The notes beneath the pieces were generated by a model. The model ran no database searches and was not told where the DNA came from. It saw only the letters and a list, made by a program, of their open reading frames with translations. 64,000 nucleotides of DNA from Gemmata palustris. GTDB lineage: Bacteria; Planctomycetota; Planctomycetia; Gemmatales; Gemmataceae. Positions 1,095 through 45,292 of this stretch are shown here, one piece after another. The DNA is taken from positions 6,339,299 through 6,403,298 of the forward strand of contig NZ_JAGKQQ010000001.1 of NCBI RefSeq assembly GCF_017939745.1. Reading direction: 5' to 3'. The position numbers and the translations under genes were made by a program. Positions within the stretch are counted from its first letter, which is position 1. Each line of letters opens with the position of its first letter.

Positions 1095-4000
1095 ATGTTT
1101 CGCTATTTGGTCGCGCTGCCACCGCTTGCCGCAGTCGCGCTACTTTTCATAATTTCGCCCAACGGCGCACCCACCGTGGGCGCCCAACCCGCGAAAGAGA
1201 AGTCCGGGGACGCGGACGCGCTCGCTCAGGTGCAAACCGTCGAGAAGGGCTTGAAGGTCGATGTGTGGGCCGCGGCCCCGCTGATGATGAACCCCGTGAG
1301 CTTCTGTTTCGACGAGAAGGGGCGCGTGTTCGTTGCCGAGACGACGCGGTTCGAGCACGGTGTTCCCGACACGCGCGGGCACATGAACTGGCTCGACGAA
1401 GACCTCGCGAACCGCAGTATCAATGACTTGCTCGCGATGTACCAGAAGCACAACTTCAAGGGTTACGAGAAGTACGAGGACCAGGTGCGGGTCGTGTGGG
1501 ACAGCACCGGGAGCGGTAAGGCGGACAAGAGCGAGGTGTTCTCGGGCGGCTACAACCGCCCGCAGGACGGACTCGCCGCGGGCGTGCTGGCTCGCAAGGG
1601 GCAAGTGTACTTCACCTGCATCCCCGACCTGTACGTTCTGAAGGACACGAAAGGCACGAATAAGGCCGACGAGAAGAAGTCACTGTTCACGGGATTCGGG
1701 CCGACGGTGCAGTTCCTCGGTCACGACCTGCACGGCCTCCGTATGGGGCCGGACGGCAAACTGTACTTCAGCGTCGGCGACCGCGGGTTCATGGTGACCA
1801 CCAAGGAAGGAAAGAAGCTCGAGTACCCGAATACCGGCGCGGTGCTGCGATGTGATCCGGACGGGAAGAACCTCGAAGTCGTTCACTCCGGGTTGCGGAA
1901 CCCGCAGGAGATCGCGTTCGACGATTTGGGCAACCTCTTCACCTTTGACAACAACTGCGACAGCGGCGACCGCGCGCGGTGGGTTCACATCGTTGAAGGC
2001 GGCGACAGCGGGTGGCGCGGGGGCTTCCAGTACAGCACGGGCTACCACACACCGGCAGTTCCCCAGGGTAACCGCGGCGCGTGGAACACCGAGAAGTTGT
2101 GGGAACCGCAGCACGAGGGTCAACCGGCGTGGATCGTTCCGCCCCTCGCGAACTTTGGCAACGGCCCCGCGGGGATCACGCACTACCCCGGCATCGGGCT
2201 GAACGACAAGTACAAGGATCACTTCTTCGCGTGCGACTTCACCTCGAGTGCCGGTAACAGTGTGATCTGGTCGCTGGCCGTGAAGCCGAAGGGCGCGAGC
2301 TTCGAGATCACCAAGCCCGAGCCGTTCGTGCGCGGAATGGTGCCGACCGACTGCGAGTTCGGGCCGGACGGCGCGTTCTACTGGTCCGACTGGGTCGGCG
2401 GGTGGGCGCCGCAGAACCGCGGGCGCATCTTCCGCGTTACCGATCCCGTTGCGATGCAGAACCCGCAGGTCGCGGAGGCGCAGAAGCTACTTGCAGAGGG
2501 CTTCGAGAAGAAGACCATCGCGGAGCTGGCAAAGCTGTTGGAGTTCCCGCACCAACTGGTTCGGCAGGAGGCGCAGTTTGAGTTGTCTTCACGGAAGGCG
2601 GAAGATGCGACGAAAGCGTTCGCCGCTGTGCTGAAGGACTCGAAGAACCAACTCGCTCGGCTGCACGCGGTGTGGGGGCTGGGGATGATGGCTCGGAAGA
2701 CCGAGTCTGCTTGGAGGTCGTTGCTCGCTCTTGTGACGGACGAAAATACTGAGGTGAAGCGTGCGGCAATTGAGCAACTGGGCCGGGTAGTAATAGGCCC
2801 TGACGAACCCTCAAAAATGCTTCGGAGACTGCCCGAATCAGGGGTTTTGATAGAGCCTGTAAAGCACTTAGATGGCATTCAATCAGCGATACTGAAAGCT
2901 CTTACCGACCCGGATGATCGCGTGAAGGCTGCCGCCGCAGTCGCGTTTGGCAAGAGTGCTGCTCCGGTATTAGCCTTGCCGGTCTACCCCGCGTCGGAGA
3001 TGGCACGGTTTGCTCCGCTCTTTGATTTGCTCAAGGCCAACAACAACAAAGATCCGTACCTCCGGCACGCGGCCGTAATGGGGTTAGTTCACGCTGCTTT
3101 TAATCCCGCGGATCTGGTGAATGCATTGAAGGTTGCGAAGGAGCTAGTGAAAGATAAGTACGACGTGCCCGCGGTGCGCCTGGGTGTTGTACTCGCGCTG
3201 CGGAAGCACAAGAGCGACAAGATCGCTGAGTTCCTCGCGGACGCTGACGTCGGGATCGTCACCGAAGCGGCGCGGGCGATCTACGACGAGCGCATTGGGA
3301 GCAATGAGGCGCTCGCGAAGTTCGCGGACAAGGTCGGCCAGCCGGACGCGATCGCCTTCCGCGCGCTGGCAGCGAACTACTGCCTGGGCACTCCCGAAGG
3401 CGCGGCCCGGGTCGCGGCTTTTGCCGCACGTCAGAGCGAACCCGATTACACCCGTGCGTTCGCGCTCAAACTCCTCGGTGACTGGACGAAGCCGCCGCGT
3501 CGCGACCCGATCACCGGGCTGACACTCGACATCGCTCCGCGCGACGTGAACATTGCTGCGACTGCGCTCAGGCAGGCGGGTATTGGCATCTTCGCCGGTT
3601 CAGATACCGTTCGTAAGGACGCCGCACAGGTGGCCGCGAAGCTGAACCTCAAGGAGTTCGGCCCCGCGATGGCGGCACTCGTGAAGGATGCGAAGAACCC
3701 GGTCGGCACCCGAGTGGAAGCGCTGTTCGCGGTAGAGGCTCTCAAGGACGCGGGCACGAAGGAACTCGCCGCGTTCGCGCTCTCGAGCGACGAGCCGCGG
3801 CTCCGTGCCGCTGGCCGAACCGTGCAGGCGCATCTCGATCCGGGCGCCGTTCTGAGCGCCCTGCCCGCGTTGCTCAAGGACGAGAAGACATCGCTTGTTG
3901 AGAAGCAGGGCGCTTTCGCGATTCTCGCGATTCAGAAGGCTTCTGAGGAAACGGACAAGCTGCTGGGTGAGTGGCTCGACCAAGTGAACGGCGGCAAGGT

Positions 4001-4658: not shown

Positions 4659-4745
4659 GGCGAACGGCCGGTGTGAGCCGGCCGGTGAACCTCCACATCC
4701 TATTGTGTGGGAGGTTCACCGGCCGGCTCACACCGGCCGTTCGCC
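4659..4745. terminator. 36-bp inverted repeat between convergent genes (bidirectional terminator)
   Basis: Arms 4659-4694 and 4710-4745 are perfect reverse complements around a 15-base loop, placed between two converging genes. The outer part of the left arm (CGAACGGCCGGTGTGA) is also present once as a direct repeat starting about 4637. This suggests the palindrome belongs to a dispersed repeat family. Confidence 0.7.
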
Positions 4746-14412: not shown

Positions 14413-14536
14413 ACCTACCCCCCAACCCCCTCCCTAAAGGGAAGGGGAGCAGGCGCGCGAAATCTCTGTGATTGGGAACACACTCGGTGAGTGGTTTTCC
14501 TCCCCTTCCCTTTAGGGAGGGGGTTGGGGGGTAGGT
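14413..14536. repeat. Palindromic repeat element, copy 1 (MITE-like)
   Basis: Perfect 37-bp inverted arms (14413-14449 and 14500-14536) flank a 50-base centre. The arms read ACCTACCCCCCAACCCCC... The first bases of the centre (CAGGCGCGCGAAATCTCT) recur almost exactly in the second copy at 39345-39480 inside rnhA. It could act as terminator for the upstream gene. No transposase is encoded. Confidence 0.85.
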
Positions 14537-23378: not shown

Positions 23379-23422
23379 GATTAAATATCCGCGACTCAAT
23401 TGAGCGGAAGTAGGAACCGGGC

Positions 23423-23836
23423 TCAGTAGCGGTCGCCACCGTACCCACCACCGCCTCCGCCACCGTAACCCCCACCGTATCCTCCTCCTCCACCACCGCC
23501 GTACCCGCCCCCGCCTCCGCCTCCGCGTCGACCTCCACCGCCCCCGCCACCGTAACCCCCGCGCCCGCCGCCCCCGCCACCACCGCCCTCACGCGGTTTC
23601 GCAACGTTAACGGTAAGCGGTCGGCCGTTGATCGCCTGCTCGTTGAGCGCGGCGATGGCGGCCTGGGCCTCGTTCTCGTTGGCCATCTCCACGAACCCGA
23701 ACCCGCGCGAGCGGCCGGTTTCGCGATCCATTACTACTTGTGCGCGGGTCACCGCGCCGAACTGTTGGAACATTGCGGACAGTTCGTCGTCCGTTGTGGA
23801 CCAAGGCAAATTGCCGACGTAGATGTTCGTAGCCAT
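23423..23836 (-). CDS. Glycine-rich RRM RNA-binding protein
   Basis: The 137-aa protein has a single RRM (residues 1-82) with RNP2 (IYVGNL) and RNP1 (RGFGFVEM). A C-terminal tail of about 55 residues is made almost only of Gly with regularly placed Tyr and Arg. This is the cold-inducible GRP/Rbp architecture known from cyanobacteria and planctomycetes, thought to bind and chaperone mRNA. The RGG/YGG tail is likely disordered. The ATG at 23836 was chosen because it begins the RRM. Confidence 0.93.
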   Translation of the reverse strand: MATNIYVGNLPWSTTDDELSAMFQQFGAVTRAQVVMDRETGRSRGFGFVEMANENEAQAAIAALNEQAINGRPLTVNVAKPREGGGGGGGGRGGYGGGGGGGRRGGGGGGGYGGGGGGGYGGGYGGGGGGGYGGDRY

Positions 23837-24021: not shown

Positions 24022-24072
24022 AACGGGGCTGTTGGGCGCCAGATCCACGATCTGGCGCCCAACAGCCCCGTT
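24022..24072 (-). terminator. 24-bp perfect hairpin, groES terminator
   Basis: Arms 24022-24045 and 24049-24072 are perfect complements with the 3-base loop CAC. It lies 24 bases after the groES stop. Read on the minus strand, a CGTTTTTCC stretch follows the stem. Confidence 0.8.
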
Positions 24073-38928: not shown

Positions 38929-39654
38929 ATGTCCGATACGGCCACCATGCACATCGACGGCGCGTCGCGCGGCAACCCGGGGCCAGCGGCCTACGCCGTG
39001 GTCCTCGCGCGCCCGGGAATGCCCGTCGTCGAAGAGGCGGACACCATCGGCACCGCGTCGAACAACGTGGCGGAATACACCGCGTTGGTCGAAGGGTTAT
39101 CGCTCGCGGTCGAACTCGGCGTGAAGAAGCTGAACGTCTTCAGCGACAGCGAGTTGATGGTGAAGCAGATGAGCGGCGCGTACAAGGTCAAGAACGAAGA
39201 CCTGCGCCCGCTGTACGAAGAGGCGTGCAAGCTCCGGCGGCAATTCGAGCAGATCACGATTACGCACGTGCGCCGCGAGCAAAACACCCGCGCGGACGCG
39301 ATCGGCAACGACGCCCTCGATGGCAGACCGCGGAAGCGGGGGGGGCCTACCCCTCCGGCCCCCCTCCTGTCCGGGAAGGGGGAGCAGGCGCGCGATCTCT
39401 TTGCGACTGAAGCAACATTATTTGACCGCGAAGGGTCTGCCTCCCCCTTCCCGGACAGGAGGGGGGCCGGGGGGGTAGGTTCTTCCAGTACCTCCGACGC
39501 CCCCATTCGCGCGGATGCGATTCAGTGTCTCGCGGACGCCGCCCAACACTGGGCCGCGAACGGGCTGAAGGGGCTACCGCCGGAGGCGGTGTGGGAACAG
39601 TTGTGGTCTCTGTTGGACGAAGCGGGTGTGCTGAAAAAGAAAAAGGCGAAGTGA
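38929..39654 (+). CDS. rnhA: Ribonuclease HI with in-frame palindromic repeat insertion
   Basis: In this 241-aa protein residues 1-135 form a complete RNase H domain with D10 (HIDGASRGNPGPA), E49 (NNVAEYTAL), D73 (FSDSELMVKQ) and D123 (TRADAIGNDAL). It degrades the RNA strand of RNA-DNA hybrids. Residues about 136-188 (GGPTPPAPLLSGKG ... FPDRRGAGGVGSSS) are encoded by a palindromic repeat element (39345-39480) lying in frame. A short helical tail (residues 192-241) follows. The stop is separated by one base from the next start (TGACATG), so translation is probably coupled to the PEP-synthase-like gene. Catalytic residues are upstream of the insertion, so activity is likely retained. Confidence 0.93.
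   Translation: MSDTATMHIDGASRGNPGPAAYAVVLARPGMPVVEEADTIGTASNNVAEYTALVEGLSLAVELGVKKLNVFSDSELMVKQMSGAYKVKNEDLRPLYEEACKLRRQFEQITITHVRREQNTRADAIGNDALDGRPRKRGGPTPPAPLLSGKGEQARDLFATEATLFDREGSASPFPDRRGAGGVGSSSTSDAPIRADAIQCLADAAQHWAANGLKGLPPEAVWEQLWSLLDEAGVLKKKKAK
39345..39480. repeat. Palindromic repeat element, copy 2, inside rnhA
   Basis: The 40-bp arms 39345-39384 and 39441-39480 differ at 2 positions. The 56-base centre begins CAGGCGCGCGATCTCT, almost identical to the centre start of the element at 14413-14536. Outer arm bases (ACCTACCCC...) are also shared in type. The element is read through in frame without stop codons. Confidence 0.88.
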
Positions 39655-45233: not shown

Positions 45234-45292
45234 ACGCGAAACGGTCCGCGCTTCCGAGTGATAGACACTCGGAAGCGCGGACCGTTTCGCGT
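45234..45292. terminator. 27-bp perfect hairpin between convergent genes
   Basis: Arms 45234-45260 and 45266-45292 are exact complements with loop ATAGA. It is located between the secreted protein gene and the convergent sigma54 activator and should terminate both. Confidence 0.85.

Follow-up and report, generated by a model that had tools for sequence, protein, structure and literature searches.

A dispersed palindromic repeat read in frame within the RNase H-like gene and other genes of Gemmata palustris

The palindromic element of the rnhA-type gene

The rnhA-type gene of Gemmata palustris contains a long palindrome between its catalytic fold and its C-terminal tail. This raises the question of whether the segment belongs to the protein family or is a mobile repeat that landed within a reading frame and, if the latter, how such repeats spread and stay readable. 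The window analyzed here is the whole 64-kb stretch of DNA around this gene, and its relevant features are as follows.

38929..39654, + strand: rnhA-type gene with the internal element (ORF of 241 aa; RVT_3, E 2.2e-21; RNase_H, E 5.8e-10)
38929..39345, + strand: RNase H fold (AlphaFold2 pLDDT >90 over most of residues 1–130)
39346..39479, + strand: family-A palindromic element, core of 134 nt (CCTACC..GGTAGG), approximately residues 140–184
39346..39384, + strand: left arm of the element, reads PTPPAPLLSGKGE
39385..39440, + strand: asymmetric centre of the element, 56 nt, starts CAGGCGCGCGA
39441..39479, + strand: right arm of the element, reads SPFPDRRGAGGVG
39480..39651, + strand: conserved C-terminal tail (two predicted helices, residues 191–211 and 218–231)
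14413..14536, + strand: second family-A copy, core of 122 nt, same length class, outside genes

The initial annotation described a 136-bp element with 40-bp arms and two mismatches. The palindrome is the same one, with revised dimensions: the core measures 134 nt, and its 39-nt arms, 56 nt apart, are 97% complementary with one mismatch. The proposed in-frame capture within RNase HI, adding about 45 residues, is borne out by the 241-aa ORF, which is RNase H-like and free of stop codons across the element. The two Pfam matches cover residues 5–128, and the closest solved structures to the fold are RNase H entries 4e19 and 3hst. Asp10, Glu49, Asp73, and Asp123 (D10, E49, D73, and D123) are invariant in the RnhA alignment and, judging by the Escherichia coli enzyme, are presumably the catalytic acids. 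The element, of about 45 codons, separates this fold from two weakly predicted C-terminal helices. AlphaFold2, supplied with an alignment containing ten genus sequences, gave no confident structure for residues 142–188 (pLDDT <50) and only modest confidence for the helices (block pLDDT of 58–72). Judged from its sequence, the insert very probably forms a proline/glycine-rich spacer of about 45 residues in the RnhA linker, predicted to be read through, and its peptide looks like an unconserved disordered spacer. The planctomycete host suggested earlier agrees with the nearest named records of this RnhA, which are Gemmataceae, Planctomycetota, and Limnoglobus in a contig scan that gave only three close RnhA relatives.

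A second element with the same centre start had been pointed out at 14413–14536, and it is indeed of the same kind. Its arms (14413–14449 and 14500–14536) are 37 nt long, 100% complementary, and 50 nt apart; it shares the arms and the centre start with the rnhA copy, with 81% identity over 36 nt, and its arm frame is no longer open.

Further repeats were observed in the window. Positions 937–996 form a perfect 30-nt palindrome without a spacer, and at 4659–4745 two 36-nt arms match perfectly around a loop of 15 nt. This inverted repeat overlaps another of similar kind and is possibly a further repeat family or a terminator. Two perfect hairpins, terminator-like in shape, lie at 45234–45292 (27 nt, with a 5-nt loop) and 24022–24072 (24 nt, with a 3-nt loop), and a CCGCCACC-rich tandem array, spaced mostly by 12 nt, occupies 23421–23587.

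Family A across genomes and within coding frames

A covariance model of family A was built from 20 copies, 19 from the 9.2-Mb G. palustris genome (G000) and one from the rnhA of a close relative, G008. In G000, where 150 of the 5015 candidates from a first look were scored, it yielded at least 123 both-strand matches at E ≤ 0.001, corresponding to at least 73 positions when strands were merged. BLAST with each window copy also finds the family throughout G000, and the 12-nt arm end AACCTACCCCCC occurs 64 times there, compared with 0 for a reversed control. Because of this count and the genome-wide model matches, the likeness of the two window copies is not a chance similarity; the repeat is found as DNA in dozens of unrelated genes. 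The rnhA insertion is thus one of dozens, a larger observation than the initial annotation had made, and the insert is almost certainly one copy of a dispersed palindromic repeat, captured in frame.

In the family consensus, AACCTACCCCCCCGnCCCCCCTCCCTGAAGGGAAGGGGGAG is followed by a centre, in most copies 50 or 56 nt long and with the start given above, and then by the mirrored arm. Its total length is usually 132 or 138 bp including the ends, the core measures 118–134 nt in 48 of 50 copies, and no protein of its own is encoded. Double-sided changes were found in 9 of 32 arm pairs, compared with a shuffled mean of 1.6; none of 500 shuffles scored as high, a figure that is not a probability since the copies are related. 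Sliding the pair partners weakens this covariation signal. An Rfam search returned 33 matches up to E 1, all under the gathering score and mostly to microRNA hairpin models.

At E ≤ 1e-10, family A is present in at least 18 of 59 genomes including G000, namely in at least 14 of 19 genus members and at least 4 of 18 other members of the family; 54 candidates were scored per genome with stricter filters, so that a zero is weak evidence of absence. G008 has at least 54 both-strand model matches.

All 73 positions of G000 and 35 copies from the listed G008 matches were classified by their surroundings. A copy was called genic if a stop-free ORF spanned it and the codon log-odds reached at least 9 bits on each side; the codon scores were trained on 40 ORFs of the one 64-kb window, and the genic call therefore rests on codon bias. 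By this test, 70 of the 108 copies lie in frame inside coding ORFs (46 of 73 in G000 and 24 of 35 in G008). The remaining 38 comprise 10 copies between coding frames without read-through, which may be broken or tandem genes or the ends of genes, and 28 copies outside genes. As the threshold loosens, the former number takes values of 10, 11, 15, or 18. One of the extra cases is a ThiF-family gene of G008 (locus L192, approximately 2718–3321), whose palindromic insert leaves the last ~55 residues out of frame; its G000 orthologue is read through. This real break shows that landings are not always harmless. Since free phase predicts about one-third of landings to be readable, the ratio of 70 readable copies to 10–18 others would imply strong purging or a strong bias, and out-of-frame copies have in all likelihood been purged.

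The hosts are ordinary enzymes: 37 of 39 scanned ORFs matched Pfam families at E ≤ 1e-5. This sample derives from 43 genic copies in 41 ORFs, minus the two rnhA genes, with 27 later-added genic copies standing outside it. The G000 hosts include aldehyde dehydrogenase, PNKP ligase (two inserts), penicillin amidase, GT87, RsmB, Kdo transferase, AMP-binding enzymes, and UPF0261, and those of G008 include SelB, AIR synthase-like, MoeA, MgsA, and U32 peptidase proteins.

The consensus contains a TGA stop in one frame of the left arm and a TAG stop in one frame of the right arm. At the usual core length of 2 mod 3 (e.g., 128 or 134 nt, or 132 or 138 once the terminal AA and TT are included), one frame per strand crosses both arms; the arm stops, together with a total length that is a multiple of three, close most frames. 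The complementarity of the arms means that PTPPxPLPEGKGE...SPFPSGRGxGGVG is read whichever way round the element lies. A strict set of 50 of 71 copies, 32 genic and 18 non-genic, was used to follow this design. In 29 of the 32 genic copies, the core is 2 mod 3 and the arm frame is open on both strands; in 21 of the 32, the arm frames are the only open ones. The genic copies are read in the + orientation in 21 cases and in the − orientation in 11. Among the non-genic copies, 11 of 18 keep the length class and 9 of 18 keep both frames open. Codon permutation predicts an open unused strand in 24.4 of 29 copies, and 29 of 29 were observed (P 0.004, with relatedness ignored).

These features allow a tentative reading, which we regard as rather doubtful, that family A is adapted to intragenic life as a two-way readable, self-repairing linker that would spread through the proteome and turn over with other palindrome families at a fixed set of loops in the proteins of these planctomycetes. 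On this reading, a length that is a multiple of three, the arm stops, and the same arm peptide in both directions would render about one-third of landings harmless in either orientation. The 29 open unused strands and the length class of 11 of 18 non-genic copies are hints in its support.

Filled, empty, and reused sites in related genomes

An rnhA gene was found in 42 of the 59 genomes. Among 18 genus members with an rnhA match, the segment is missing in at least 12, and the repeat turns up as DNA in dozens of unrelated genes; neither refuting condition of the initial annotation holds. The linkers compared had been trimmed and lacked some of the right arm; no linker was obtained from two of 28 loci, and loci L053 and L056 stood outside the list. 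Long inverted repeats well above shuffles were found in the linkers of G000, G008, G006, G005, and G011. Slight excesses over 40 shuffles were seen in G015 (11 versus a shuffle maximum of 8), G016 (11 versus 10), and G010 (10 versus 8), and these short repeats were left uncounted as palindromic inserts. The other linkers measured do not rise above shuffles. In G001, G002, G003, G012, G013, G014, G017, and G018, the linkers are short sequences that are neither related nor palindromic. At locus L045 of G009, the linker has a short CCGGGGGTGTTAGCCCCCGG hairpin that does not exceed shuffles.

That the insert is a conserved linker or domain of the RnhA family, with incidental palindromy, would agree with the presence of some linker of at least 18 codons in every genus member measured. 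However, the eight short linkers just listed bear no relation to it, the same DNA repeat occurs in dozens of other genes, and AlphaFold gives the insert no confident fold. We give this explanation almost no credence, and a conserved RnhA domain is ruled out by the recurrence of the DNA repeat in unrelated genes.

A phylogeny based on RnhA, the neighbour downstream of it, and TsaB unites G000, G008, and G010 in one clade (0.999) and places G006, G005, and G011 each with insert-free species (0.868, 1.000, and 0.987, respectively). By parsimony, at least four separate gains of an insert are inferred in the rnhA linker; repeated loss is a possible alternative. The inserts also differ in kind. A further palindrome type, with the reading PSPLAGEG, is present in G005 (locus L036) and G004, and CCCTCTCCC..GGGAGAGGG palindromes lie in frame at L220 (G009), L242 (G004), and L036. 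PSPLAGEG itself is read in the PNKP ligase of G009 and the rnhA of G005, with a close variant in the aldehyde dehydrogenase of G004. The rnhA linker is a repeated landing site of several palindrome families.

Other genes show similar patterns. Site 2 of the PNKP ligase holds an insert in G000 and is empty in G008, G002, G006, G005, and G007; it holds a different palindrome in G009 and a smaller insert in G003, and G010, G001, and G011 are not informative. The aldehyde dehydrogenase site has family-A-like inserts in G000, G006, and G011, other palindromes in G008, G001, and G004, and none in G005, G009, and G012. Six orthologue pairs of G000 and G008 have inserts at the same site, mostly of different modules. 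In the metagenome-assembled genome (MAG) G011, the rnhA insert contains a stop codon, which counts against universal tolerance, although a sequencing error may account for it. The rnhA of G010 (locus L037, G010:C1:684048-687518) looks interrupted, but its scaffold has an N gap and, behind it, a fragment similar to the downstream gene, so that an assembly fault induced by the repeat is the probable cause.

The orthologous rnhA elements of G000 and G008 permit a comparison within the repeat. In each arm, a block of five neighbouring bases differs between the two, the blocks occupying positions that match, and the centres are alignable. Such matched changes are as template switching between the arms predicts, and we put the chance that the arms are homogenised in this manner at about even; conversion from another copy is an alternative source. 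In the yeast coding DNA described in the available part of one report (PMC8604942), inverted-repeat arms are homogenised by template switching, and the accessible text of another describes coding palindromes in Nematomorpha mitochondria (PMC6649704). As far as these texts go, both cases are like family A in having complementary arms in genes, with arm homogenisation and spacer inversion, but unlike it they are not dispersed gene-inserting repeats.

Centre differences between the same two elements number 4, 3, and 3 by codon position, and of 44 codons, 10 differ nonsynonymously and 6 synonymously. No codon-position signal of selection on the peptide was found in this one orthologous pair, and because codons change without position bias, the peptide is regarded as a tolerated spacer. 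Were it instead selected as a useful disordered linker, with the element spreading by supplying linkers to its hosts, the repeated use of the same loops by unrelated families and the strongly conserved frame and arm peptide would be expected. Yet the only pair tested lacks the codon-position bias, inserts are missing in sister species or swapped for other modules, and the reuse is explained by the tolerance of few loops; we therefore consider selection on the peptide very improbable.

Spread of the repeats and comparison with known systems

The copies would have spread by a trans-acting process that leaves no recognizable target duplication, with a mover that is likely based on hairpin or single-strand DNA. 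In-frame landings in loops would survive and most other landings would be purged, the arms would be kept complementary by template switching or conversion, and the inserted peptide would be tolerated rather than selected. A mover that recognizes hairpins is a plausible candidate, if one that falls somewhat short of an even chance.

Two transposase-based explanations were considered, both of which we judge unlikely and to a similar degree. According to the first, family A is a MITE, and the autonomous form of the DDE transposon behind it has been lost or resides in other genomes. Its terminal inverted repeats with a conserved AACCTACC end and its tens of copies would suit this origin. However, no target duplication of 4–9 nt was common to three or more copies when 61 of 71 copies were compared at offsets of 0–11 (the ends of the other 10 were not recognized). 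Moreover, none of the 64 exact 12-mer ends in G000 formed a wide inward-facing arm pair or bounded a longer element with the same ends, in a search confined to exact 12-mers and inspected by eye.

The second explanation is that a RAYT (IS200/IS605-like) transposase moves family A as a repeat of REP/REPIN type, the in-gene copies being survivors. The palindromic arms, the lack of a detected target duplication, and the GTAG near the ends are compatible with it. The usual GTAG-hairpin unit, by contrast, is unlike 39-nt arms around a centre of 50–56 nt. Y1_Tnp is absent from G008 in a search of five genomes, with matches in the other four, although G008 has the many model matches given above. No family-A arms lie within 1.5 kb of the three Y1 genes of G000, and arms near Y1 genes (2 of 17 loci, versus 2 of 19 control pieces) show no clustering. 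Intragenic REPs have been published, including those of the PVC species O. terrae (PMC3733652). In the available portion of that paper, REPs are reported inside genes of many bacteria including PVC members, the in-gene GTAG/CGTC units measure 20–40 bp, and the GTAG ones are often near RAYT genes; the recB genes of two Xanthomonas species were also found to carry different REPs in approximately the same place. Family A differs from these units in its 134-nt core and in showing no RAYT association. The enterobacterial repeats RU-1, RU-2, and RU-3 are likewise described, in the text available to us, as short mobile repeats that keep an open frame inside annotated genes (PMC2759123); their hosts are different, and the likeness is one of description.

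The best-known palindromic repeats within protein-coding sequence are those of obligate intracellular alphaproteobacteria, and the initial annotation had drawn a parallel with those of Rickettsia. That parallel holds for the mode, as family A is a dispersed palindrome of about 100–150 bp with in-frame copies in unrelated genes (70 of 108). From what is accessible of the published accounts, Rickettsia palindromic elements (RPEs) are palindromes of 100–150 bp, some in frame in genes and others intergenic (PMC3767692, PMC2229807, PMC10969869); different RPE groups have been reported near the same place of orthologues (PMC3767692, in part), and WPE-like in-frame inserts occur in addA, addB, and priA (PMC4224334, in part). 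As far as those accounts extend, RPEs and Wolbachia palindromic elements are like family A in their size and their in-frame sites in unrelated genes. Family A, in contrast, resides in a GC-rich planctomycete host, and one model covers 70 read-through copies in two genomes, both orientations lying in the same arm frame. By analogy, then, family A appears to work as RPEs do; the likeness is by description, and no membership of the RPE sequence family is claimed.

In-frame palindromes and site reuse are thus not new in kind and have already been published. No description of such inserts in Gemmata or its relatives was found in the literature searched, whose coverage largely leaves out subscription journals, so that this absence is unproven. 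What is new, as far as that literature goes, is that such families occur in planctomycetes, that a single one reaches this scale, that its design is readable in both directions, and that rnhA is affected. Judging from the reading frames, such repeats appear to be a continuing source of floppy linkers in proteins. They are found at large scale in a planctomycete group whose genomes measure ~5–10 Mb, as several palindrome families and in several related genomes. With filled and empty sites in the same genes, an old question becomes testable, namely whether hosts merely put up with the inserts as debris or gain new protein linkers from them, which loops take them up, and by what means elements lacking a recognizable transposase spread. 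For annotation, caution is advisable, as palindromic inserts can split domain matches in enzymes.

Further in-frame palindrome families, PNPLTPFPKKEGGTEP..APPSFLGKG and SPSPFRGGVGEGLQ, were observed at loci L170, L198, L206, L207, L209, and L214 of G000, where they are often in tandem or nested with family A in the ORFs.
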